Source of the DNA: Ulva prolifera
Lineage: Eukaryota > Chlorophyta > Ulvophyceae > Ulvales > Ulvaceae
Reading direction: 5' to 3'
Assembly: GCA_023078555.1 (NCBI GenBank)
Contig: CM041198.1
Span: 832,856 to 896,855, forward strand
Length of the DNA stretch: 64,000 bases
In this document: positions 2,402-60,621 of the stretch, piece after piece
Layout of the letters: each line of letters starts with the position of its first letter
How positions within the stretch are numbered: the first letter of the stretch is position 1
Program-made: the position numbers and the translations under genes
The notes under the pieces: model-generated
Told to the model about the DNA's origin: nothing
The model's input: only the letters and a program-made list of their open reading frames with translations
Databases searched by the model: none

Positions 2402-5400
2402 CTAGAATTCGATCCGTACTGCATGGTCCACCCCACTGCTCAGCGTACTCGCTGCCACATCTACACGCACAGTGTCCCGGTCAAATCTCCACCCATGCTC
2501 ATCCCCGTCAGATAGCAGAACCCCATCCACCTCGACGCGGTTCGGCTTTTGCGTACAGTACATCAGCAACGACCCCTCACCCCGCAGCTCGACAGTCAGC
2601 ACTGCCCCAACGTATCGAACATCCTCGATTGCACCCCCACAATTCAGCATATTCGCCAGACCCAGCACAGCATGCTCTACGCCAGCCGCGCTGCGGACGA
2701 TCGGTGCGAGTGTCAGCACGTCCGCATCGGCGGGGTTCACGCGCACACATGCCGTGTGATCTGCTTCGTCGACCACCAGAACCTCGTCCGTGAGATGCCG
2801 GTATATGGCTGTGCGCTGTGTGCTATTGCAGCCGCCCGCCTGCAGCCGCTCGGCCACAGCAGGTAGCGTCGGTACGTCTGTGTCACGGACCCGGGCCCAC
2901 AGCGGTTCAAGCGGCGCGCGGCCAAGGTTGAACCGGCGTGTCTCGCGGTCCCAGAAGGCCCCCTGTAAGTGGAAGACACCCACGACGCCTGTGTACTCAT
3001 TCTCTGACCATACCTGCACGCACAGTCCGGTTGTTCCAGGCTGATCATGCAAAAATATTCCAATTCTCTGAGGCTGTGCATGAACTGCAGTCACTTTGAA
3101 CCAACAATGACAACAACATCAAGCACAAACTGCATCAGGATGACTGTGCAGTCCTGCCCGCAGCAGGCCCAGGCCACGTCCAGCAGTTTTGAGTGGCGCA
3201 GCTACAGCTGCAGGCAAAGCAATGTACTCGAGCTGCTGTAGATGCACACACGTCAGTGAGTCCGACATGCAATGCAGAGTGCCCTCTTGCACAAGCGGTC
3301 AGCATAAATTACAGGAATTCTCAAGCGCAGCACACCTTCAGCAGAGTCTCGCCGTCACGCATCGGGTCCCGGAAAATGCAGTCCGCGGTCGGCAGGCCCG
3401 GCCGCTGCGCCCGCAGCACGCTGCCGTCGCGCAGCACGAGGCGGCGCAGCACGGCAAAGTCATGGCGACCGACCTTGTCACTGACATACACTGGCCCGCC
3501 GCTCACGGCCCGTGCGCACGCATGCAGGTGCGCCGCTGGGTGCATGCTCTGAAACATGTCCCAGTCTGGCTGGCAGATGACGCTGAGGAACAGCGAGTTG
3601 AATGCACACGCGGCGACGTGTGGCGTAGTGCTCGCAGGCTCGCGCGGGTAGAAGTCATCAGACACACGCATGAGCGCGGAGTCTCGCATCTGGTATATGT
3701 TCTCTGTCGAGTGGCACATGCAGTTGATTGCATGGTTGCCAGGGAAGTGGGTGGAGATTGAATCCTCCAATGCGCCGTGAAAGTTGCGCGCTAGCGCTGG
3801 CCCGCCACCAGTGACGCTCCCAACCAGGCCGAGCCCCGCCTGGCAGTCCACCTGCACAGCAGCGAGCTCTGCAGCAGCTCCACTCGATCGCCTCTCTTGT
3901 CGCACTGTGTCAGACACCCCGACATGGCATCGTGCATGCACACCGTGGCCAGTCTTGGTGTTGCTTGACCGATCAGTGCTTCCCATTCAGTCAGGCAGGA
4001 AGCACAGACGCAGGGGCCAGCCGGGGTAGCTCGGCATACCACACCACCTCAATCAAGCAGTCACACCTTGACGCCGTCCACTCCAGACGCAGCCAGGTAG
4101 CTATGCATGCGGGTGTACAGCTCGCTCGCGTCGTCCACGACGCCGATGCCCGCAAGCACTGCGGGGTTCCACAGCATCGCGGGCTCGATCTCGCGGAGGC
4201 CCTCTGTCGGCTCGGGGTACACGATGCGGCCGCCGAGGCTCTCAAACTCCTTCACCGACGGCATCACGCCACCCCAGTAAGCCGGCAGGCCGTGCCAGCA
4301 GTAGACAAATTTCACGCCGTACGTCGAGCGGAAGTCCGACACGACAGAGTTGAAGTCCTGGCTCTCTGCAAGCCACGCTCGCTGCTCTGGGCCGGAGTTT
4401 GGCGTGGAGAACTTGCCATTGGCCTTTACGGAGATGAGCCGCTTGGTGAAGTCGCCAGAGGCGCGGAAGAATGACAGCATGCCGCCTTTGAAGGGGCCTC
4501 GCGCGAGCTTCTTGAATAGATTTACTGGCCAGGTGTATGGCCCTGCGGGATCAACGACCGACTGATAAAAGAACAGGAAGAGGACCTGCATCACGGGCAC
4601 AGCAGTGACCTTGGTGGACGGACGCTGGCCATACTGGGCTTTCTGGATGCCGGTGCATCAGCTGGCGCATGCGTGAGCAGTCTGCCACAGTGATGGTGCT
4701 CCAGTGATCAAATTGCTGCCAAGATGCGATCGTAGGCCAACAGCTCTGCACGGACGAGTGAAGGCCTCGAGACAGTACATACAGCAGCTTTGCTTGATCA
4801 ACATGATTGCCTGGAGGACGTTCGCTGACAAGGGCACCAGGGTGGGGGTTGCTGGGCTAGAGAGAGGGCAGGGCTTGCATCCAGGTGCTGGCAATGCGAG
4901 GCAGGAGCGAACCTGGGCAACGCCAAGGCCCCAGCCTGCTACCCTCTGCAGTAGCCGTGCCCACAGACCAGCTTCCTGGGGCTGCTCGGCAAGCTTGATG
5001 ATCGTGCGCTCGATATCGGGAATTTGCATCTTGCTCTTCTTACGGAACTCATCAATCTGGTTCAGCATCTCAGTTTTGCTCTCGTCTGTCACTTGGTCAC
5101 GACTGCGCAGCTCCTGGCGCAGGTTGTCACCGTACTCTGCAAATGTGAATGATGGCTGACATAAATCCTGCGTGAAACGATTGATTTGGCTTGCATGCGA
5201 GGAACGAAACACACCAGCGTCAGCCAGAGCAGGCATGGTCATCATCAGTTCTGAGCCACCCGAGAGGGCATCAGCATACGACGACAGCACGGTTTGCTCG
5301 GCTTGATCAAACTCGTCCTCAAGGACTGCCATGGACACAGAAGACACATTCATCTTTCGGAGCGCCTTGGTGGTAATTGCCTCTGCACAACAAGTGCACG

Positions 5401-8400
5401 GTCACGCAGGACACTTCAAGAAAAGCTGGTCGCCAAATGAACCTGGCAAGAGGACGCTTCCGGCATAACAGCAATATGTATATTGTAGAAATGACAGCCT
5501 GGTCTTTTCACATGATGACAGCTGTCAACCTTGACGTCTTCCATGCTAGATGCTGCATCAAGAGCAAATCTTGAGCCCCCAGTAGTGCGCATGCGAACAT
5601 CAACCAGACGCTTGCATGAAGTACCAGCCCGCAGGGAGTTGAACCTAAACCGCCACGGCAGTGGCAAGTTTCAACATAAGTGTGGCCAAACACTGACACC
5701 ATCTGGCCGACCTTGGCACAGTGGGACATTGTGGCCACACTGCATAAAAATCATTCGGCAGAGACGATTCACCCAGTGCTACCACAGGAAACCTTGTGAC
5801 CATGAAAATGCAGTCACATATGCTGTGCATGTTAATGAGCATTATCTTACCTTCATAGTCCTCATCCACCTGTGTCATTTGCCAGCCATCATCTATGATT
5901 AGTGTTTGTGGGCGGATGCCACCCTTGTGAAGGCTAGCCAGGCCCTCACTCACACCCTGCATCAGGCGATCAGAGTTCAGCGTGATCGCCGCTGGCTGTC
6001 GCGGTCATTACTTGTACATGCATCAGCACCGTAGGCATACCTCTGCACTAACTCCACTGTAGAATGCATCCCATGTACACCATCCAAAGCCATTCATGCA
6101 ATCTGGCAGTTTCTTTTCTGTCCGCGGCCGAGCCTTGCCGGAGAGCTTAGCCGCCTTCGTCACAGCTTTTTCAATCAGTTCATAGATGTCCCGTCCAGAT
6201 GACACCAGTGCCACACTTGGCCAGTCGCAAGATTTGACAGCTGGATCTCCACTTTCGATTCGTAGAATAGCATCTGATGACACAGGTTGCAAAAGCCTGC
6301 AGAGTTTGGCTGGACCTTACAAAAGGACCTAGTGCCTGAACTTTTGCGCAAGTGAGCTTGCGTTCGATGCACTCGGCAACGCCTCATAAACACAGGGTTG
6401 TGGCGATGTTCCCGGCAGCGTGCGATGTGCAAAAGAAAGCAGTACTCTCCACAACGCATGGGCAGGTTTGACTGTGCCGTGTGGTACACATGTCAACGCA
6501 ATGGACTGCCCATCATTTGACCTCATACACCGTGATACTACATAGGAATGGAAGAATAACAAGCCGAATAGGTGTTGTTGCTTCTTAACCAGGATTTGCT
6601 TCGCCTCGGAGGAGCACATGCTGCTGTACAAATTGTGCACCCTGTACACGTGGCGTCGGCACGGTTCCATGCATTAGCATTGGTCGCACATAGCATTCAG
6701 CGGTGGACGCCAATTCAAGCCATCTGACGTCAATCAGCACGAATTCCTCCGCCCAGCGTACACTACTGTGTGCCACATTGATGTTCTTCGAGTGCGTGCA
6801 GATTTCCGCTCTGAAATCGACCACCAGAGAAAGTGCAGGGGAGAACACATTTACACAACATGGAGCTGACGCTTCCATCAAAGCGTTCTAGAAATTTCGA
6901 CGATGCGGTTACCGACACTGCGACACTGCGCAGGTTGAATCGCTCCGCTTGGAATCGGTACGTGCCGTAGACATCGCGACCTCCGGCCTATTGTGAGAAT
7001 TTCTGTAAAACAGCTGACGTGCAGGACTGACGTTGGCATCACTGGTTTAGAGCGTATAATAGATGTTCAAGCGCTGAAGGTAGGTTCCAATGGTACGGGA
7101 AATAATCTCAGTCGGGGCGCGCGGTGGTTGTTTTTGACATGAACCTGCGATACAGATCAACGATTTGGAGAAGGGTTTGAATGATCTTAAGGAGAAAAGC
7201 CAACGTAACGAATGGGCCAGCAGAGAGCTTGGCCGCATCATGGAATCGAATGCGAAGTGGAAAGAACACTGTGATGAGTTGCAGACACGGTTGCGATCAG
7301 AAGGTAAAACCAGGTTACGGCGAGAACACGAGTTGCAACTCAAGATCGCAGAGAGCGAGCAGCAAGTGACAGCACTGCTACATGCACAGGTCTGCCAGCT
7401 GCAATTACACTTTCTCCAGCAATGGAACATGGCCATATATTCACATTCCAAAATGATTAATGCAGAGCGACCAGCAGATGGAGTTGACAGCGGTAAAGAC
7501 AAGACTCGTGACAGCACAAGCGCAATTGGAAGGTGCAACCCTGCAACAGTGGAACTCGGATCGGATGCAGGGAACACAGCCAGTCGACACCTCAAGAGAG
7601 TTACTGTCAGCCAGAGCAAGCCTGTCGACGCTGCGGAAAGAGCTGCACAAAACGCGTGCACGGATGGTATGTGCATGAGCTGCCGTTGACTTGGGGCACA
7701 TACGAGTTGCAAATGGTGGGCTAGAGTGAGCGAGTCGGCTTGCAGGCTGGAATTGAAACCGAGCTGGTCCAAGCAACGGAGAAATTGTCTAAACATGACA
7801 TTGAAATAGATACACAACAGCGTCATCAGGAACTGCTTCAGTCCAAGCTTCGTGCACTGGAATGTGATGCTGCGGAAGCTTCTGCCGCAAAAACAGAGCT
7901 CATGGAAGCGCGCAAGCAGATTCAGAAGCTGCTTGAGCAAACGTCACAGGCAGATGATCAGGAGCAACTGAAGGAGCGATTACGCATCACGCAAGCTGCA
8001 AGCCAGGCCCAGCAAGTACGCATGCAGCACCGATGCAATAGCCTTGGGACACTATGCTTATATCATCATGCGAGCCTATGAGTGACCACCGTAGTCCGCA
8101 CTGTAGGTGAAGCTCGAAGCTATGGCTGAAGAACAGTATCGGAATATTAATTGGGATTCAGAAAGAAATGAGTTGCAGGCTGAGATCTCAAATCTGCAGC
8201 ATGCGCTCAATGACTTGCAGAGTGCAACAGGTGTACAAGATGTTCGCCATGTCTTGCAAGGTTATCAAACCCGTGAGGTCCAACTGGAACAGAAAGTGCA
8301 GCAGTTGATGACAGAGTTGCAGCACCTCAAGCACAAATCTCAGTCCATGTCCACTGAAGTTGCCAGTGTTCAAGATGAGAGAAACGTGTGCTCCGGAGTG

Positions 8401-13339: not shown

Positions 13340-13540
13340 ATGCGCGAGGGGCTTGGTGTGTGTGTCAAGGACAAAGTTGGAGCGCCCGGTAGCACCGCCA
13401 GGGCAACGAAAAAGCACATCAACGGCCCAACGCATGCACGTCAGGCGACTGTCACCCACGTTCAACCCGCCCGAACACAGCGCCCAATCACAGCTTGCAG
13501 CCCCAACCACAGCATGACAGAAACCCACGGAACACGCACA
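13340..13540 (+). repeat. Dispersed repeat, GTAGCACC family, long copy
   Basis: Closely matches 22085-22275 base by base. Shared blocks are GGTAGCACCGCCAGGGCAAC, CAACGGCCCAACGCAT, CACGTCAG, CCGCCCGAACACAGCGCC, and GACAGAAACCCAC followed by GAACACGCAC. Homology also runs into the left flank (GGACAAAGTTGGAG). It ends in a CA-rich tail. No open frame is conserved between copies, which suggests a non-autonomous element. Confidence 0.7.
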
Positions 13541-14264
13541 CACATATCCACACACCAGATCTACGCACGCACCCTCGCTCCAGCCCCAAATACACGCAGC
13601 CACGCGCCTGCACGCAAAAGGGGCTTGGTGTGTTCGCGGAACCGGCGACCCTACAAGTGTATGCAGGCCGAACATAGGCCGTGGCGATGCATCGTCACAA
13701 GTAGGTCGCGCGCATAACATCTGTGCCATAACTACGTGTTCTGCCATGCGACAGGTGACACCGCAGTGTCCTGCAGGCACCAGCTGATGCTGCGTCCCAG
13801 CGGGTCGGCGGCTCAGCCTTCCGCAGCACAGCTGCCTCCATGCCGCTGTACATTTCTCGGTACAGCAATCCGCCGCACAATATGCACAAAGCCGTGCGAA
13901 AAAAGGGGGAGCAATGAGGCACAATCCAAACGAGCGGTATGAGATTTTGTGGTCTTTGGCACGGTCGAGACAGTTTGTGCGATGGCGTACGCCCAGCTAG
14001 CACATTGCATGCAGCCGGTCAAGCTCCGGACTCACGCCGATGCTGCGCAACATACCCCTCGCTTCTTAAATGCAGCGTGCCATATTCGCGCATGTGCTTG
14101 ATCGCCAACGAGCTCGATGACTGTCTACAGCAAATGGGGCGTGATCGACGTTGGCATGCTTGCTTCGCTGTGTTGACTGGCCCTGCGCAGATGTCGCCTT
14201 GCATTTTGATTTAGTTCATATCGACGATGTGAAGACCGTGCGGCTTGTCATCATAACAGTATAT

Positions 14265-21937: not shown

Positions 21938-22084
21938 CGACCTGCGCGTTAGGACGGCGACGGCCGAGCTGCCGACTTGGGGCGCCGGGGCCACGCGGGC
22001 AGCAGTGTCGTTTTGCGTGCAGGCCCGGGGCTGCGGGTGTGTGGGGCTGGTGAGCGGGCGGGCGCGCGGGTGCGGTGTGTGTGG

Positions 22085-22275
22085 GTGTTTGGCACAATTA
22101 CAACTTCGGAGTGGCCGGTAGCACCGCCAGGGCAACGAATAAGCACACCAACGGCCCAACGCATACACGTCAGAAGATTGTCACCCACCCTACGTCAAAC
22201 CCGCCCGAACACAGCGCCTAACCACAGCATGCACCCGTACACAGCACGACAGAAACCCACCGAACACGCACCCCC
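22085..22275 (+). repeat. Dispersed repeat, GTAGCACC family, forward arm
   Basis: Copy of the 13340-13540 element, with long shared blocks beginning GGAGTGGCCGGTAGCACCGC. It faces an inverted copy at 22346-22520, with the (GT)n tract between the two. Confidence 0.75.
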
Positions 22276-22345: not shown

Positions 22346-22520
22346 CGCGCGTGTTCGTTGGATGTCTGTCATGCTGTGCTTGGGCACCATGTTAGGGTTC
22401 GACGTGGGCGAGCATCTCCTACCGTGCATGCGTTGGGCCGTTGGCATGCATGTTTGTTGCTCTGGCAGTGCTACCGACCACTCCGACTTTGTCCCTGCAA
22501 CACTGACTCCAGCTGTGGGG
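22346..22520 (-). repeat. Dispersed repeat, GTAGCACC family, inverted arm
   Basis: Read on the minus strand it gives GGACAAAGTCGGAGTGGTCG, then GTAGCACTGCCAGAGCAAC, CAACGGCCCAACGCATGCAC, and CAGCATGACAGACATCC, the same order as the forward copies at 13340 and 22085. Confidence 0.72.
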
Positions 22521-49271: not shown

Positions 49272-51596
49272 GGGCAGCTCCTCAAAGTCCCGTCAGGTTG
49301 CAGCACGTGTAGCAGAGCCTTTGGAGCGGTTCGTGCCACAGGTGTCACCATCTGTGCCCCTCCGACGAGATGTGCCCCGCATCAAATCAATAGAAGATCC
49401 AGATGTGAATGCGCCAGGCCTCAATGGGCTCACAGTCGGTGGCACTGCTGCATTGGAGACTGGGACTTTCACTGTTTCAGCAGTCCAGCCAATTCAGTAC
49501 ACAGTGAAGGAGGTGCCTGGGCTTCTCGACCCAGCCAATGAGGTGTGCCTGGTGCTGCAGTTTATATGCCTGTGCGCTTGCTGACATTGTTGCTCCAAGG
49601 TGATCACATCCAGCCCTGCTTCTGCGTGGACATTGCGTGAGTACATTGTAAATGTGACAGCTGTTGTTGCCCTTCAGTCGGTGTTCTTATGCACACAGCT
49701 GGTCCCCTTCTTTATGCCTTTTAGTCAGTTACTCACCCAAATCTGAACGGTACAGACTCTGTTGTCTGGCGTGATTCCAGAATCTCATCCTCTACAAATC
49801 CTCCCTGGCCGAAGCCCACACGAAGTGCGACCAAAGAGGCTGGTGGTGGTTGACGCCAACGTGGACATCCACTTTGGTGATCAGATCCGCAAGTACTTTG
49901 AGGCTCACAATGCGGACCTTCACCTACTTGTGCTTCCAATGTGTGAGGAGAACAAGAATTTTGACCTCGTTTTCACTGTTGCGGAAGAGATTGAGAAGGT
50001 CAAGCTCAACCGGCGGAGAGAGCCCCTGATCGCCATCGGCGGCGGCGTTTGCCTGGACATCTGTGGATTGGCAGCCAACTTGTATCGTCGCAACACACCT
50101 ATAATTAAGGTATCCCACTCAAAACTCCAAAGAACATGCGAGAACGTGTTGGTAGTAACCTGCATGTCTGACCAATCGATGTTGGCTGTCTGTTGACAAC
50201 CAGTCATCAGGCTCCTCGTACTTAGTACAGCAGTGCACTCAGTCTCTTGTGGCCAACTTTGCCGAGTTTATAGGTGCCGACGACACTGATGGGAGTTGTG
50301 GATGCATCAATTGGCATCAAAACGGCTGTTAACTTCATCGGTAAGAAGAACAAGTTAGGCACATACTGTCCACCACTGGCTGTATTCGCGGACCTGTCCT
50401 TCCTCCGCACCCTTGACGACAGAAACTTAGCCAATGGCTCTGCTGAAATCGTGAAGATGGCTTGCATCAAAGATGAAAAGCTCTTCCACCTGCTGGAGCA
50501 GCATGCTTCAACACTGATGGCCACACATTACCAGGTATGGTTGCCCCTGGGGCACCTCGGATACTGACAAATCACCATCAGCAGACAATCATATTGCATG
50601 TTCTTGAACATCCATCACACAGGTACATGAAGATCATACCACTTGGTTTTGACCGGTGTTGGCTGAATGGTTCTGTCTTGCCTTGCGACTCTGGCTGCTG
50701 CGCTCACACCAGGAGACCTCTGTCCGTTCTCTGTCTCTGCAGCCACTATAGCATTGTCACGCTCTCTCTGAGGGTGTGCTTTGTGTGGTGCAGTGCGAAG
50801 ACTCCTCTGTGGTCATCAGGCGAGCAATTCAGGGCATGTTGGAGGAGCTGGAGTACAACCTGTATGAGCACATCCTCCTTCGCCTGGTGGACTACGGACA
50901 CACCTTTTCCATGGATATCGAGATGGCGGGTCTGGATTTTGGCATGCTACATGGTGAGGCTGTCAGCATCGACATGGCTCTGACGACAGTTATGGCGAGG
51001 GGCAGGGGCTTGATCTCTAGCGCAGAGGCTGACAGGGTGTTCAAGGTCATGGCTGCATTCAGGTGTGCACTAAGACCAATGCCCACCTTGCCACAGTGGT
51101 GTTGGTTGTGATGAATGGACGCGACTGTATATGATGTGACGTGCGTCTTGAAAGTCAGCATGCATTGATAGTGCATGTGCAAGATCTCTTTCTGGGTATG
51201 TCCAATACATCGGTCCTGAGATGGAGTGCACTTATACTACCTGGAGGGATACTGTCTATTAAGGGTTGTGTGCTATGCAGGCTACCAATCTGGCATGATG
51301 TCTGTGATGACGCTGTGCTCTGGAAAAAGGCTCTAGCAGACATTGTCAAGACGCGGGATGGTTCTCAGAGAACACCACTGATGAGTGGCATTGGTGGTGC
51401 CAGCTTCGTGAATGATATTACTGAAGAGGAACTTCTTCAAGCTGTAGCAGATCTGAAAGTACAGGCTGAGACCCATCCAGTTTCTTTCATGCACATGGCT
51501 GTGGATAAGGCTCCGGGCACCATCGTCATTGAGCCTGCACAGGTAGAAGTAGCTTCAATGCCAGAGTCGGTGAAGGGCACAGCGCTGATGGTGTAA
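49272..51596 (+). CDS. 2-epi-5-epi-valiolone synthase-like sugar-phosphate cyclase (5' end not found)
   Basis: Five exons are seen (49272-49542, 49756-50109, 50274-50534, 50794-51062, 51281-51596), about 490 codons in phase. A short upstream exon with the start codon is missing from my model. It is a dehydroquinate-synthase-fold enzyme: the EEVS-type opening VKEVPGLLDPANETLLSG, KRLVVVDANVD, the NAD site GGGVCLDICGLAANLYRR, VPTTLMGVVDASIGIKTAVN, the Lys/Glu block NGSAEIVKMACIKD, and the metal-binding His motifs VDYGHTFS and LHGEAVSIDMAL. EEVS cyclises sedoheptulose 7-phosphate; the sister enzyme DDGS makes desmethyl-4-deoxygadusol from the same substrate. KTAVNF..KNKLGTY and the neighbouring methyltransferase-oxidoreductase favour EEVS. 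Five introns' worth of clean GT-AG joins show it is a native nuclear gene, not bacterial contamination. Confidence 0.85.
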
Positions 51597-51968
51597 CCGG
51601 AAGCATCGTGCCAGTCAGATCTAGTAACTCGGAAGTCGCTATGCTGCTCTCGAGACATGTTCACTGGATCAATGATAGCTGAGTAGTTGGGCTGACATGA
51701 TGCCCGCTAATTTGATAAATCAGGACATTCTTCAACTTACCCGACCCAAGTCACGTACATACGAGATGCAAAGATGCAAACATGAATCGGGTGTGAACAG
51801 TGTAGTAAGGCTGGGTGAAGCGGTGGATGTGGTTGCCTTGAAAATCATAGGCAAGGATAAATATGTGTGCATGGTTGGTTGTAGGTGCTGGAGGTTGTTG
51901 TAGCCTGCTCTTACAGGTGAAGATGCTGCCCTATGGCCGTCCAGCCCTGAATAGTAGTGCAGTGTTGG

Positions 51969-51973
51969 TGTAA
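51969..51973 (+). promoter_or_regulatory. Candidate poly(A) signal TGTAA of the cyclase gene
   Basis: First clear TGTAA downstream of the stop (about 370 bases). Another GTGTAA followed by a run of A lies near 52018. Confidence 0.4.
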
Positions 51974-53659
51974 ATACATTTGGTGCATTTGCAAATAAAG
52001 TATTTGATGCAAAAATGGTGTAAAAAAAACTGCCTTGCCGCATGGCATGCCATCACCCTGATTTAGTGGGCATTGTGTGGCCCAAGCACAGCCTGATTTA
52101 CTTTGTTTTGAAGCACAGCGCAGGAGACCTGACCATGCCTCAACAAATCCTGCTTTGCCGAACAATTTATGTTTCCAAATTGTGGATTATTACCGAGAAG
52201 CTGTGAAAAGGTTGTACATGTGCACTGAGCAAACCTCTTGTGATTGCATTGGTTTGGGATTGACCCCACTGCAGCCGCACTTTGTTACCATTGTGCACAT
52301 GGCATCACCAAACAGCATATGCGGTCCCGTTGATTCAGAGTTGACAATATCCTTTCAGAATTTGGCTCAGTAAATTTAAGTTTACTTTACTTTATCAGTA
52401 CCCGGGGCCCTGTTGATCATGTACTGTAACAAAGGAACAATTGTGTGTGCATCATGTTGAAGCAGTAATGTGACCAACGCTGGCCCTGCATATCTTCCGA
52501 AAGTGCAGTTGGGGCTGCCCTTCGTGTGAAGAGAACGTCCTCATCTTTTGCGGGATTCTGATATTGGCTAGCAGCAAACACGTCTCAACGTGGATTTTCT
52601 TGATCTGCTTCTGAGTGATACTGCAGTATACTGGGACCCCATGCACTCCCGCCATGTGGGGGCAGTGGCGCGCCATGGCTGCGCGTGCATGACCGTCACG
52701 GCACACGAAATGTCTGCCGGGCCATTGCGTGCCGCCGCGACGCCTGAAAAATTCTATGCGACGAAACGAAAGCGTCATCCAATATCATCAAAAGTATGAT
52801 ACTGCGCAAGCGCCCGAGAGGAGCTGTGCGTAGCTGTGCTATGTCACAAGCTTCAGTACTGTGAAATGCATCGGCGACGTGGCCGTCTGTGACAGCTCGC
52901 TTGATCATGCTGCAGTACCATGGCTGCAGGTGCCGAGACACGCTCGGCTGGCGCGCCTTCTTGGTGCGCATCCGGCGCAACTAACGCTTGGTCACATCAT
53001 GATCTTGCTTCCGGAACAGCGCCGACAACGTTGCGTCGACCGATCGGCCGTCACGCCGGATATCAGATAATCGATGCCAAGGACCTTGCGAAACTGGTCA
53101 GGCGCTGCAGCCCTTGCAGATGGTCACAGAAGAGTGAACGGGCCTCAGGAAGCACAACTGATTCTCACCACCAAGTGCCGCAGCCCTGCTCCGTCTGCGC
53201 TTCTCTGATTACGAGACGAAATGGTTGCCCGTGGGCTCAATCGTCTTTTGAAAAGACTCCTTTCAGCCGCACGATCGCGTTTGCGAGGCGTCACAGCGCT
53301 CGTTGGCATCAAGAAATGTACACAGCTTTGAGCACAGATATATGCCACGCTGCGCTTGTCGCAGCCACAAGAAGGTACCTCACGTGACTGGTCGGCAAAG
53401 GTCCACAACAGCCGCGGCTGGCCGTCCGTGTGCGGCGTCCCTTCCAAAGTTGCGGTCGACCTGGAGGTAAAGAACTATGTCCGCTCATGGATCAGCGATG
53501 GTAAATCTGTTTTAAGCATGATGTCTCTACATACAACAATTCCTGAGTAATACTCATGCCCTCCACAGCCGGGATACATGCTGTCCAGTATCGACTGGTC
53601 ACCATTCGTCAACACATCGTTGCAGCCCTCGTGGCTCGCGTGGTCTACAGCGATCTGAT

Positions 53660-53735
53660 TTGAATACATGCACGCGCATGTGTGTGCATGTGCGCACATG
53701 TGCATCCGCATGTGCGCACATGTGCGTGCGCATCT
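53660..53735. repeat. Cluster of CATGTGCGCACATG palindromes
   Basis: The 14-base perfect palindrome CATGTGCGCACATG occurs twice (53687-53700 and 53709-53722), exactly 22 bases apart, within alternating purine-pyrimidine sequence with many GCATG/CATGC units. Confidence 0.85.
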
Positions 53736-54449
53736 GGGCGGGACCAAGTGCGCACGATTTCACAGTCAGCCTTGGAACTCTCGACGCGGGCGGTGGTTCG
53801 CCCATGTACAGCAGACATGACCACAAGCTCTATTGTTTGTATCGTGAACCTGTGACTGCCGCAATTTCGCGCCTACATCCGTGATCACAGCGCCGTGCGG
53901 GGGCACCGTGACCGCGGAATGAACATGTAGCTCTCCACAACGCACATGCCCGCCCACGTGCACCGAATACCCGGTGTCTGCTTGGCGCCAAAACTGTGAA
54001 TATTGTGCCGCCCGCTGCGCGCAGCAGCAGGGTTGTTGTCGCTCTGTATCCACGCACGTTGTCTTGATAGGCCCCGTTTGAAAGGCGGTTTCACCTGACT
54101 GTTCCGTGTACGCTGCACCAACTGCTACACACACGTCTGTACAGACAGTGCTCACTGTGCTCACATTCAACCAGAAGGTGCGCTTGGCACCGTGATCGCC
54201 AATATTGCCGATGACGTGCTCCGATCCATTGTGATCGATTGTTTCAATCCTCAGCTTCATGGTTCCATGGCATGCTGAGGCGCTACAGTGTCAAGCTTCG
54301 CTCGGCCGCTACTTGCCGCTGCCGACGAACGCCCACGCCGCTTCCCACAGTCCTCATACAAGCATACCACAACGTACATTGCATTTAGCTCATTTTAAGA
54401 GTTGATGCGCCGTTTCTTGACATAGTTAGGCCGCTGTGCAGAGATAGCC

Positions 54450-57348
54450 ATGGGGGCACCAGAAGGTATCAACGCCACAGGCCAGCCTGATACGCCAATG
54501 GAGGTGATCAATGACCTCCTCGCCAAGGCGCTACAGGCGACCACACTAGAAGGTATGAAGAAAGATGTTGAAAAGGCCTACCGCATCTCCAGTGGCCTGG
54601 ACCAATACCTTGACCGCATGATCCCCGAGGTGCCCCAAGCGTGCCAGGATCTGATAGCAGCCAGCTCAGAGCACGATTGGGAAGGCGTGTACAACGCAGT
54701 GCGCTACGGACTCACATCCATGCGCATGGGAATGCAGCCGGTGCCACCATGTCGCGTGCACTGCCTGCCCAGGCCCTTTCCTCTCATGCATTGTCCCGTT
54801 CACGTCGTTGGCTGTATCAGACCTGAGCTTGGGCTGCAGCCACGTGTCAAAACTGGCATTCAACTGTATATTCTAGACATTGCACCGTCTGTCTGTGACA
54901 CTGCGCCCTCACCGAAATGGTTGTTCGTGTGCTTGTTATGAATCTGGCCTTCATTGAACACCATGGAAGCATGCCATAGTCCGCGCATTGTTCAGGGCAA
55001 GACACAATTCAAGCTGAAGCGTGAGATGAGTGCTGGTGCCCTTGAGGGCCGCGTGATGAAGATGCTGTGCGCCATCTCTGGTGCCAAGACCGTGCTAGAG
55101 GTCGGCATGTTCACAGGCACCTCTGCCCTCGCCATGGCAGAGATCATTCCAGACGATGGCAAGGTACTTCTCTGCTTTGCGCATGCCTGATTGGCCCGCT
55201 TCACTGTGTCCTTGCAGAACTTGTGGGCAGCTTGCACTGCCAATGTGCACCAGGGTGATCAAGACTGCGTGATCTCCACCGCTGGCAGATTTCGCATGCT
55301 TACAGGTGGCATATGCAGTTTGACAGTGTCAACACAATACAATTTGCTGGTCTCTGCAATCTACATGTGAAGTTCCTGTGCATGACACACTGTTCCTCTA
55401 TCGACACCATTCTCTTGCTTCTAGTCCAAGTCCAGGCAGTGATACTGAGGCAGCACAGAGCGCAGGCGCTATCCTGCTCCTGTTCGCAACTTATCATGCC
55501 TGTGCGTTCATGCAGATTGTGTGCCTTGAGATCGAGCCATACCTCAAGGATTTCGTGACTCCATTCTTCGAAAAGGGCAACCAGGCTCACAAGCTTGACA
55601 TCCGTGTCGGAGACGCTGCAGAGTCTATCGCGCAGCTCAGCAAAGAGGGGCAGACCTACGACATTGCATTCCTTGATGCCAACAAGACTGGCTACCTGAG
55701 CGTTTACAACCTGATCATGGACAACAACATGCTGACGCCTTCAGGCTTCATCGTTGTGGACAACGCCCTCATGAAGGTGTGCGATCACACCACGCCAGTC
55801 CACACCGGCATGTGTGATGGTGGACGATCACTGCATGGCCAGAAGCGGCGCTTGTGTGCAGGGCCGTGTGTATGCTCCCCCCGATGAAGAAGATGAAGAT
55901 TCTGATGCTATCCGCCACTTCAATGAGACCGTCCTCAAGGATCCTCGTGTAGAGGTTGTGACAATGCCCGTTCGTGATGGCATGTCCATTGTGCGCCGGC
56001 GCAATCTGGCAGATGCCGACGCTGTTGCAACTGGTGTTGGAGGAGCTAACATTTTGCAGCGCCTGCGACTCAACTCCAAAGTGGCCTTGATTACCGGTGC
56101 GCCTATAACACAGACTGCGTCGGTGGCTCACTGATTTTGTGTCACCATGATATCCCTGGCATCATTTTTATGCCTATGTATTGCATAACCAAGTTGCCGC
56201 GCCTCTGCTGTAGCCAAGCAACGCTCCGTGACACAGTCATGCTGCTTGTACCACCGAAGGCAGCCAGTCCCTGACCTGTGGGATGTCGAATCCTGCATGC
56301 ATTGTCATCGCTGCTTCACCACGGCCCCGCATGATTTTGTTTGAGATTAGCAAAGTTTGTTTGTGAATTTTGCGTCCTGGAGTGCAGGTGCTGGCCAGGG
56401 TATTGGGCGATGCTTTGCTCACACGCTTGGAGAGGCAGGCGCTCAGGTTGCTATTGTTGATGTGAACAAGTCTGCAGCAGAGAGCACTGTCGCGGAGCTG
56501 GAAAAGAAAGGCATCCGTGCAATTGCAATTGAGGTGCGACCATTCGATCTGTTCTCTGATTGCTATAGATGGGCCGTGGACCAACCGCTGCTGAGCATTT
56601 ATGTGCAACCATCGAGGTCTCTGGATTCATGATGCTGTGTCACACAAGTTGACACGTAGCAAGAATTCGATCCTTTTGTGATGCATAACTGAGCGTCTTG
56701 TCAGGCTTGGTGCAAATCTTCTGGCACTTACAGTCCCTATAAAGTCTGTGCTAAAAGCCGCTGTCTTTACAGGCGGATGTCAGCAAGCAAGCCGACTGTG
56801 AAAGGATGGTTAAAGATACTGTCGAACGCCTGGGAGGCCTACACATTGCCATCAACAACGCCGGCATCAACAAAAACAATGCTGCTGAAGACACACCGGT
56901 CGAGGAGTGGGAGCAGACGTTCGATATCAACACCAAGGGTGTGTTCATGTGCTGCCAAGCCCAAGGAAAGCACATGCTGAAGCAGAAGTGTGGTACCATC
57001 ATCAACACAGCTTCAATGGCAACATTGCTTGTGCCCCACCCACAGAAGCAAATTGCATACAATGCGTCCAAGGCTGCTGTTGTCAAGATCACTGAGACGC
57101 TGGGCGCAGAGTGGGCCGACAGGGGTGTGCGTGTGAACTGCATGTCACCGGGAATTGTCAACACCGCGTTGATCCAGGAGAGCAAAGACTTGGCACCTCT
57201 GGTGGAGCAATGGCTTGATCAAATCCCGATGCACCGCTTGGCGGAGGTGACTGACTTGCAGACAGGCATCCTCTTCCTGGCAAGTGATGCAACAGCATAC
57301 ATGACGGGACACAATCTCGTGATGGAGGGTGGTCAAAGCCTTTGGTGA
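54450..57348 (+). CDS. O-methyltransferase-short-chain dehydrogenase fusion (MT-Ox, gadusol type)
   Basis: Six exons (54450-54698, 54996-55163, 55516-55776, 55862-56096, 56388-56533, 56773-57348) join in phase to 544 aa. Residues ~1-270 are a class I, metal-dependent (CCoAOMT-like) methyltransferase: the helical start AYRISSGLDQYLDRM, GKTQFKLKREMSAGALEG, the SAM motif VLEVGMFTG (~116), FLDANKTGY (~193) and VVDNAL (~221). A linker is followed at ~293 by an SDR: KVALITG|AGQGIGR (an intron splits the glycine motif), NNAG, catalytic Ser ~434 (INTAS), Tyr ~449 and Lys ~453 (YNASK), PGIVNT. In fish, a fused methyltransferase-oxidoreductase turns 2-epi-5-epi-valiolone into gadusol with SAM and NAD. 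The same domain order next to an EEVS-like gene supports that role here. It could also act on a mycosporine precursor. Exon 4 carries both the methyltransferase end and the SDR start, so the fusion is not an annotation artefact. Confidence 0.9.
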
Positions 57349-58279
57349 TACGTGCAACAGTGCGTAACTGACACCTCAACACGGAGTGGCGGACCCCGTG
57401 AAGTAGCAAATGAGAGAAAGGCAATTTCATCACCTGGAAACATGTCCAGCGGTTTTCCGGTGGATGTATGTCTTGATTGTAGAATGGTCACGAGTCAGGA
57501 ACGGATGTGTGGCCTGCGCATTGTCCATGTATGTGATGCGGGTATGTGTGTCCCCGATGTCGTCACCTTTGACCTCGCAGCATATGTAAATTGCAAACCT
57601 GACGATAACAGCATGCTGCCAATACGCCCATTAGAGGTGTCATGGTGACGTGGATGATACATGGACCATCTGCAGCATGCTACGTCTGCTATTGTTTGTC
57701 TATGAACAATCACAATATGAAGGGCAATGTACCTTGCCAGTTACTCACCCATCGCGATTAGAGTGGTTTGATCAGATGTCGAACACACAGTGTGCAGTAA
57801 GCAAGCTCTGGGCATGCTTAATGTACTTGGAGTGCGACACTGTCAGTATTTTCTGCGGAGTCCTGACTTGTCATATCAGACAATTCGCTGAGATAAAGCA
57901 TGTGATGTGAAGGCTGTTAGGTGTCTGTGGCAGCAGCTCCCTTCACCGCCGCCAGAATGCATGCCCTGTCTCGTCTTCATTCTGATACTGTGACAATATA
58001 GTGTTTGTGTGTGCTACTGACGGACAGCACATGCCTGCCTGAGCCTTGGCCCCCCTCTGTGGAACAATTGCTAATGGCAAGCCCAGGCATGTCCAACGTC
58101 AGGTGGCGCACACGCCTGTCATGATGAAGCCACTCCAATGACGGTTTGTGCTTCAAACCACTAGACGATAACAAGTTCCGTGACCCAGAAGGCTCTGGGA
58201 CCTTCCCCGAGAGGCTGAGCTGACATCCCTTCATCCCTTCTGCAGCGAAATGGTCCCAGGATCTTACAAATAGACCCAA
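57349..58279. other. Space between tail-to-tail methyltransferase genes
   Basis: About 930 bases. I looked for a dehydrogenase domain that would continue the minus-strand methyltransferase and saw none. No other gene is supported. Confidence 0.5.
58264..58268 (-). promoter_or_regulatory. Poly(A) signal TGTAA of the second methyltransferase gene
   Basis: TTACA on the plus strand, only 11 bases past the minus-strand stop. It supports a transcript that ends before any oxidoreductase domain. Confidence 0.45.
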
Positions 58280-60621
58280 TCAAATCAAAGGCTTCACTGC
58301 TCTGGAATGCATGCGGTGCGCTATCAGCCTGTACCCCAATCGGCCGCTACCCTTCCCTGCGTTCAAGCGCCCTCGTGCTACCCTCCGGCTACCCCAGGCA
58401 ACCACCGAGGCGGCAGCTGCACTCTGACTGCCCCGTGCAGTGTTGCAGCCTGAGGCACCACACCACGTCTCTCGGGCAGACGCTGTCCGGGGCTGGCTCA
58501 TACCACCTGGCGGCATTCCGGCAGCTGCGCCATCAGGCTTAGGGCCCTCAGAGTTGCGGCCAGCGTGGTCCCGTGGCCGCACAAGAGTGATCCCATCACG
58601 GACCGGCAGGGTGACTGCTTCCACCCGGGCATCCTCAATCACGAACTGATTGAACTCGCGGATGGCATCCGAGTCCGGGTCAGCCTCCGCTGCTGGTGCA
58701 TACACGCGCCCCTGTACGCCACGCTTCCATGCGCTATGGTGCTAGGTATCGCTACAGCTCGCGTGCACACCTCATTTGATGGAAAGCGTTACCACTCTCT
58801 GCATACTTGATGGGCGAAGCAACGCCGGGACCGCGCATGGGTGCATGCATAATCTTACTCCATGCAGGTACACAGAGTGTAGAAATCACGCAGGGACAGG
58901 CATTGAGAGCGCAGCGAGTATGTCTGGTGAGTCGCTTGCTCTGTCAACATCTGTGGAGGATGCTGTTGCCACTACGCTGTTGCCACTACGGACATGAGCA
59001 CGCAAGGGCAGAGTTGACACAAAAGTGCCCATGATGTAAAGCGGATCTTTCACCAGTGGCGCTTGCCACAAGTGAGCGGCACATTTGCTCGTACAGTGCT
59101 GCATGTGTGCCGCAATCACCTGGGCAGGCAAACGCCTCATGCCCACGTTTTCAATGAAGGCTCACCATAACGGAGGAAAACTTCTAGCCCAGCACAATGC
59201 GTTATGAAGCAGAGTGTGTATGGTGTAAGGAGCCATTCATTTACCAGAGTTTACACCAGATGAAGGGCTCTCATTCCCGGGGAACATGTAGCTGCAACGG
59301 TCAAGCAGGGAGCAAACCTTCATCAATGCGTTATCAACAACGATGAATCCGAAGGGTGACAGCATATTCCGATCCATGACCAGATTGTAGTACGATAAGT
59401 ATCCTGTCTTGTTGGCATCCAGAAAGACCACGTCAAACGTGCGGCCCTCCGCGGCCAGCTCCTCCATGGACCCAAGAGCATCTCCAATGCGGATGTCCAG
59501 CTTGTGGTCTTGGCTGGCCTTCTCAAAAAACGGCTTCACAAACTCATCAAGGTATGGCTCAAGCTCAAGGCACACAATCTGCAACAACATGAGCCGAGCG
59601 AGCATCAGCTCAATTAGACCGCTCTTTCACGGCATCACCATCCATTCAGTTGGCCAAAGTGATGGTCAAAGGACTACCTCTTACAGTAGTCAGAACCAAG
59701 ACAGCACAAAGTGTGTACGCAGATACATGGGGTGATTCTGCGCAAGCTTCTTCCGTGTCACACATTTGTGTCGTAGCAGCCCCTTTGGCATTTGCAGGGG
59801 GTATAAAATTGCACGTGGTGGGTTTGCTGCCGTGTGGGAGAAAAACCTTGCCATCGTCTGGGATGATCTCTGCCATAGCGAGGGCAGAGGTGCCTGTGAA
59901 CATGCCGACCTCCAGCACGGTCTTGGCTCCAGAGATGGCGCACAACATCTTCATCACGCGGCCCTCAAGGGCACCAGCACTCATCTCACGCTTCAGCTTG
60001 AACTGTGTCTTACCCTGCATCGGCCATCTGGATGAAATACGGAGCCAGGCAAGCCCAAGGACAGTCTCCTGTGCATCACAGGTATGAGCAGGAATTCCTC
60101 TTGACATCACATGCTCGGCAGATGCTCTCGAGCCACTGCATGATGTGAAAATGTTTCCAGTATGTCCTCGATCTACCACAGGTAGCACCAGTCGGCTGTA
60201 GCAGCACAAGCCGTGCCGAACCGGCCTCATACAGGCAGCCTGAAGGCTGTGTATTCAATGCCCTAGCGCATATGCACATGTACACCAACTTTGCCGCCAC
60301 TACCCACCGCATCAACATTGGCTTCACAACCAGAATGTCGGATCGGTGAGCAACACAGGACCCGGGCCGCACAGCATTGTACACGGCCTCCCAGTCATGC
60401 TCGTCGCTGGCAGATATAAGATCTTGGCAGGCATCAGGCACAGGGGATAGCATTCTGTCGAGATAGGGATCCAGGCCATTGGATATGCGATAGGCATCTT
60501 TCACGAGCTGTTTCATATCCTCTGGGGATGTGGTCTCCAGAGATTCGCCCAACAGCTTGTTGATCACCTCCATGGGTGTGTCTGGTTGCCCCGTGGCATT
60601 GATGTTTACTGGCGTGTCCAT
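58280..60621 (-). CDS. Standalone O-methyltransferase, paralogue of the fusion protein's N-domain
   Basis: The start MDTPVNINATGQPDTPMEVIN is at 60621. The four exons have the same boundaries as the methyltransferase part of the fusion gene: exon 1 to about 60373, exon 2 around 60015-59848, exon 3 around 59580-59320, and exon 4 around 58707-58280. All motifs are present: AYRISNGLDPYLDRM, VLEVGMFTG, FLDANKTGY, VVDNAL, GRVYAP and VRDGITLVRPR. Exon 2 is identical in protein to the fusion gene's exon 2, while exon 3 shares only about 63 of 87 residues. After LVRPR the sequence departs into ~95 residues of low-complexity Gly/Ala/Arg/Ser tail with no dehydrogenase. It may methylate the same or a related cyclitol, or have taken on another substrate. 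It is inverted relative to its paralogue. Confidence 0.85.

Follow-up and report, generated by a model that had tools for sequence, protein, structure and literature searches.

The window analysed here is a stretch of 64,000 nucleotides (C3:832856-896855) in a genome assembly of 88.9 Mb and 44 contigs. It contains a gene for a sugar-phosphate cyclase that appears to be of the EEVS type and, on the same strand, a gene for a methyltransferase-oxidoreductase fusion protein (MT-Ox). A third gene (MT2), in convergent orientation, encodes a related methyltransferase without the oxidoreductase. The original prediction, an earlier note on this DNA, had described the first two as a gadusol-type sunscreen locus of an algal nuclear genome. 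Features are listed in Table 1.

The cyclase gene is modelled as five exons (49272-49542, 49756-50109, 50274-50534, 50794-51062 and 51281-51596, plus strand) that encode 489 amino acids up to the stop codon, and all four introns between them have GT-AG borders. The first modelled exon has no in-frame ATG, and an upstream exon is therefore missing from the model. The product matches the Pfam families DHQ_synthase (1.4e-30) and DHQS_C (9e-25). A PDB search finds 4p53 as its best solved relative (E 2.5e-97), followed by 5tpr (7.4e-67), which we take to be a DDGS, and by 3zok (3.8e-39), presumably the dehydroquinate synthase (DHQS) of kiwifruit; other DHQSs are weaker. 5tpr shares 75.5% identity with the cyclase encoded in a Nostoc mys cluster. 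4p53 is named as ValA in PMC4426668. The cyclase is 47% identical to ValA, 40% to 5tpr and up to 53% to EEVS-like proteins of actinobacteria. A genome-wide search with a 287-aa part of it (the first three exons) returned these three exons and one DHQS locus, and no second cyclase of the EEVS type was found with this query; the genome search scores the best candidates alone, and its match counts are lower bounds. A search of viral_contigs with the cyclase alignment found no relatives.

The Pfam names, and the aroB label given by NCBIfam, would suit a reading in which the cyclase is the host's DHQS and the fusion next door is unrelated to it. This is very improbable. The aroB score is 202.4 bits, below the cut-off of 305 bits. 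A distinct DHQS of plant-like type is encoded on contig C7; it is 75% and 79% identical to 3zok over its two best exons (49-71% elsewhere), and the cyclase is 31% identical to this DHQS. In a tree of 40 rows, including four DHQSs and two DDGSs, a clade of the cyclase with the four DHQSs is rejected by the approximately unbiased (AU) test (p 0.0247). The AroB assignment was discarded on these three grounds. The tree places the cyclase among EEVS-like proteins, at an open fork shared with the DDGS pair.

Active-site residues bear on the choice between EEVS and DDGS. The comparison uses two sites, assumed to be those reported by Kean et al. 2014, and in the alignment they do separate the groups. 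The cyclase has Leu/Asp, as do 31 of the 39 other rows, ValA among them; both DDGSs have Glu/Ala and all four DHQSs Val/Asn, the exceptions being one Ebo-type row (Ile/Asp) and one Streptomyces row (Leu/Asn). That two sites separating EEVS from DDGS exist is stated in PMC4426668. The metal ligands Glu, His and His are all kept in the alignment. An EEVS-type cyclase is thus supported: over DHQS because the DHQS clade is rejected, ValA is the best solved relative and the active-site residues agree, and over DDGS because of the discriminating residues, not the tree.

MT-Ox has six exons on the plus strand (54450-54698, 54996-55163, 55516-55776, 55862-56096, 56388-56533 and 56773-57348). A 558-aa model with a later exon 1 donor was dropped, since the donor common to MT2 and the alignment with MysB favour 544 aa. 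Scanned in its 558-aa form, the single protein matches Methyltransf_3 (1e-45) and adh_short_C2 (2.8e-61). Both domains are complete in one frame, with an N-terminal MysB-like O-methyltransferase at approximately residues 1-275 and a C-terminal SDR oxidoreductase at approximately 295-544. The SDR half, read from the sequence, retains TGAGQGIG, NNAG and the Ser-Tyr-Lys set, the familiar functional motifs of its family. The methyltransferase half can be aligned along its whole length with the Nostoc MysB-type protein (37% identity over 266 aa). The alignment takes in roughly 100 N-terminal residues that PDB relatives of the CCoAOMT type leave uncovered; in the 60 PDB rows listed of 72, matches begin at residue 98 or later. 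On this full-length alignment, MysB-like is a more exact name for the half than CCoAOMT-like.

Genome-wide, the 558-aa query gave at least 16 matches. Ten of these, the top nine among them, fall inside the locus, in MT-Ox and MT2. The six outside it are to SDRs or methyltransferases and score lower, at no more than 73.5 bits; no second MT-SDR fusion was found with this query. The last SDR exon matched two distant SDRs (31-33%) in viral_contigs. Since the cyclase and MT-Ox genes are both otherwise unique in the 88.9 Mb, their adjacency is not due to chance. They are separated by 2.85 kb (51596 to 54450), and 51597..54449 contains no methyltransferase or SDR match. A mostly alternating purine-pyrimidine tract (CATGTGCGCAC-type units) lies at 53665-53735, about 0.7 kb 5' of MT-Ox, and could form Z-DNA.

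These results agree with several statements of the original prediction: the EEVS-like blocks and coordinates that it quoted for a DHQS-fold cyclase are present in the sequence, the pair lies on one strand 2.85 kb apart, and the fusion is 544 aa long with both domains complete in one protein. Its CCoAOMT-like name for the methyltransferase is the part that gives way, and MT2 was absent from it.

MT2 is modelled on the minus strand with exons at 60373-60621, 59847-60014, 59318-59578 and 58280-58711; the last approximately 90 residues of the 369-aa model are uncertain. It is a MysB-like methyltransferase, which in its earlier gene models also aligned with MysB, and its introns are placed much as those of MT-Ox. 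A search of 57349-60621 for an SDR remnant next to it gave nothing at E <= 1. DNA identity between the two genes is 65-71% in exons 1 and 3 and over the first 50 codons of exon 4. In these parts nonsynonymous divergence (dN) is about 0.2 and synonymous sites are saturated or nearly so, from which the copy is judged to be old and kept under purifying selection. Exon 2, which contains the S-adenosylmethionine (SAM) motif EVGMFTG, reaches 96% identity, with a dN of 0 and a synonymous divergence (dS) of 0.20. The near-identity spans 180 bp and stops within 10 bp of the borders of the exon. The simplest reading is that exon 2 was likely homogenised between MT-Ox and MT2 by gene conversion.

Table 1. 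Features of the candidate gadusol locus, in window positions.
Feature	Position	Strand	Remarks
EEVS-type sugar-phosphate cyclase gene	49272..51596	+	5 exons modelled; 5' exon with start codon not located
Discriminating-site stretch, cyclase exon 4	50848..50910	+	last Leu of MLEEL, Asp of LVDYGHTFS, first metal-binding His
Cyclase-MT-Ox intergenic gap, 2.85 kb	51597..54449		short fragments alone reach codon-usage threshold
MT-Ox fusion gene	54450..57348	+	6 exons, 544 aa
MT-only paralogue MT2	58280..60621	-	4 modelled exons, 369 aa in model, without SDR
Near-identical tract, exon 2 of MT-Ox and MT2	54993..55172 (+) vs 60017-59838 (-)		95% over 180 bp

The genome surrounding the locus has 38 matches to the LHC family. 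The best of these, once translated, finds chlorophyll a-b binding proteins of the LHCII type in the PDB; two long multi-repeat chains head the list, and which organisms the rows come from is our assumption. The introns, the LHC genes and the plant-like DHQS together support a green alga as host and a nuclear position of the locus. The RuBisCO large subunit had no match in the assembly, and the plastid genome is therefore probably outside it.

The enzymes of zebrafish provide the model for function. Zebrafish MT-Ox converts 2-epi-5-epi-valiolone to gadusol with SAM and NAD+ (PMC4426668). By analogy, the cyclase would convert sedoheptulose 7-phosphate to 2-epi-5-epi-valiolone, the SDR half of MT-Ox would oxidise this compound with NAD+, and the SAM-dependent MysB-like half would methylate the resulting enol to give gadusol. 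MT2 may contribute a further O-methylation, or a later one, to this pathway. Substrate, product and the ultraviolet role are all carried over from the zebrafish enzymes. We give a probability of about 85% to the reading that the locus encodes the gadusol pathway in the nuclear genome of a green alga. The original prediction's algal nuclear setting fits the introns, the LHC matches (one shown to be LHCII-type) and the plant-like DHQS, and its proposed product, gadusol or a close cyclitol, is well grounded in the gene types and the zebrafish enzymes.

Several observations weigh against this assignment. No convincing candidate for the first cyclase exon was seen in the 2.2 kb scanned upstream, and the cyclase matched no NCBIfam model named for EEVS. 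The comparison covers two of the 14 published fingerprint sites, and which two these are is assumed. A cyclase with Leu/Asp may also yield a different valiolone epimer. In the tree, DDGS is represented by two rows on a long branch, and the cyclase row is itself flagged as a long branch; a forced clade of the cyclase with the two DDGSs is not rejected (AU p 0.583) and has a likelihood 2.47 above that of the free tree, so that the tree alone cannot choose between EEVS and DDGS. Likeness to the EEVS and MT-Ox of vertebrates and of other algae is by published description, not by sequence.

The tree result leaves room for a DDGS-like or other valiolone-type synthase, which would lead to 4-deoxygadusol or another cyclitol and not to gadusol, and the resemblance of the methyltransferase half to MysB, the partner of DDGS, points the same way. 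We consider such a product unlikely, as the cyclase has Leu/Asp and not Glu/Ala at both discriminating sites, and the PDB search ranks ValA above 5tpr. The 4-deoxygadusol route is described as a cyclase plus a methyltransferase (PMC4426668), whereas here an intact SDR is fused to the methyltransferase. Membership in DDGS (MysA) was rejected on the residues. Of the checks proposed with the original prediction, the tree excludes the grouping with DHQS that was named there as refuting, and does not separate DDGS; the alignment of active-site residues favours the EEVS type.

Whether gadusol would be the end product depends on a ligase. In the window plus 20 kb (84 kb), tblastn with Nostoc MysC and MysD found no match, and the Nostoc MysA- and MysB-type proteins found their counterparts there at 9e-21 and 7e-17; the statement of the original prediction that no ATP-grasp or ligase is visible in the window thus holds. 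Genome-wide, Nostoc MysC had no match in a search without a positive control. NF005315, with which Nostoc MysC scores 560 bits, reached at best 16.6 bits, in carbamoyl phosphate synthase. The ATP-grasp families PF13535 (two loci) and PF02655 (three) were read as carbamoyl phosphate synthase, carnosine-synthase-like and tubulin-tyrosine-ligase-like. PF07478, used for MysD-type genes, matched five loci: the carbamoyl phosphate synthase and carnosine-synthase-like loci again and, by eye, one biotin-carboxylase-type and two Ddl-like loci. All genome searches were run exon by exon in an intron-rich genome without a positive control, and a split gene can escape them. A MysC-type ligase is likely absent from the genome, as far as these searches reach.

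Some of the ATP-grasp loci deserve mention in their own right. The carnosine-synthase-like gene (ATPgrasp_N; C8:175756-175962) is a possible amino-acid ligase. The D-Ala-D-Ala-ligase-like exons at C1:165756-165911 and C5:3559608-3559763 are nearly identical, a hint that a Ddl-type gene has been duplicated; it may serve a peptidoglycan route in the plastid.

Published algal loci may point to a different end product. In 2015 EEVS was described beside MT-Ox in Coccomyxa subellipsoidea and Aureococcus (PMC4426668), and in 2020 a neighbourhood of EEVS, MT-Ox, ATP-grasp and O-methyltransferase genes was described in Klebsormidium nitens, Chromochloris zofingiensis and Coccomyxa (PMC7826186). The discussion of the latter paper places the neighbourhood in at least four genomes; the paper proposes a mycosporine-like amino acid (MAA) with a gadusol core as its product and states that the enzymes were untested. 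The pair described here could likewise make the gadusol core of such an MAA, as in prasiolin and klebsormidin; the ligase would then lie at another place in the genome or be unrelated to MysC. This reading is quite conceivable, if short of an even chance. It draws on the ATP-grasp and O-methyltransferase genes beside EEVS and MT-Ox in the three published algae (PMC7826186), on the gadusol-core MAAs of Prasiola and Klebsormidium (PMC7826186, PMC13312787) and on the carnosine-synthase-like gene of this genome. It is at odds with the failure to find MysC or MysD in the 84 kb, although MysA and MysB queries match there, and with the absence of a MysC genome-wide by Nostoc MysC, PF13535, PF02655 and NF005315, with the reservation for split genes already made. 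Because no MysC-type ligase was detected, unlike in the published four-gene neighbourhood, gadusol itself is weakly favoured as the end product on present sequence evidence. A tentative and rather doubtful variant is a ligase-free pathway that would end in gadusol, or in gadusol O-methylated by MT2, with MT-Ox and MT2 kept alike by exon conversion.

The window and its flanks have other features as well; Pfam scans covered 6 and 9 open reading frames of the window. A gene of the raffinose synthase or Sip1 type has exons at 2405-5986 on the minus strand, two of which match PF05691. The downstream flank contains, on the plus strand, a succinate dehydrogenase flavoprotein gene (L005 5386-7459; PDB match) and a gene whose product, judged by eye, is a U2AF-like splicing factor (L006 6947-8731). 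A dispersed repeat, possibly a small mobile element, occurs in both orientations at 13352-13617, 21988-22271 and 22395-22503 of the window and at L006 2118-2413, with matched stretches of 83-277 bp at 74-86% identity.

Among known systems, the pair resembles that of zebrafish (LOC100003999 and zgc:113054; PMC4426668) in enzyme types, domain fusion and gene adjacency; it differs in its algal nuclear location and its convergent MT-only paralogue, and it is known from genes alone. Horizontal transfer from algae has been proposed for the animal gadusol genes (PMC4426668). Bacterial EEVS (ValA) shares 47% identity and the same discriminating residues with the cyclase, and the ValA-type role is in pseudosugar antibiotics. 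Bacterial EEVS-like loci were considered as a source of the fusion and set aside: 2 of 80 loci have a CCoAOMT-type match in their flanks, partial, at about 32% identity and more than 5 kb from the SDR match. The plasmid mys cluster of Nostoc sp. HK-01, whose mysA-D names are read from gene order and families, also encodes a cyclase from this superfamily, and its O-methyltransferase is collinear with the methyltransferase half; the cluster differs in the DDGS residues of its cyclase, in a stand-alone MysB-type gene without an SDR and in two ATP-grasp-type genes.

The green-algal neighbourhood of PMC7826186 is the nearest published case. EEVS adjoins MT-Ox in both, whereas no MysC-type ATP-grasp gene was found here in the 84 kb or the genome. 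The extra methyltransferase differs too: here it is a MysB-like duplicate of the methyltransferase half, and in PMC7826186 it is described beside MysB and so apart from it. MT2 is therefore probably another gene, because the published O-methyltransferase is named beside MysB and not as MysB. Metabolomics from 2026 annotated gadusol in Klebsormidium, where in-source fragmentation is possible (PMC13312787). Published tests of the algal enzymes were not recognised among the titles, abstract beginnings and passages considered. The EEVS and MT-Ox pair in algae was already known; what a specialist would take as new here is the paralogue that lacks an SDR, together with the seeming absence of a ligase. 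As a further clean green-algal pair, in which no ligase was detected and the methyltransferase is duplicated, the locus is well suited to testing the algal enzymes and to the question of whether gadusol is the last step in some green algae.

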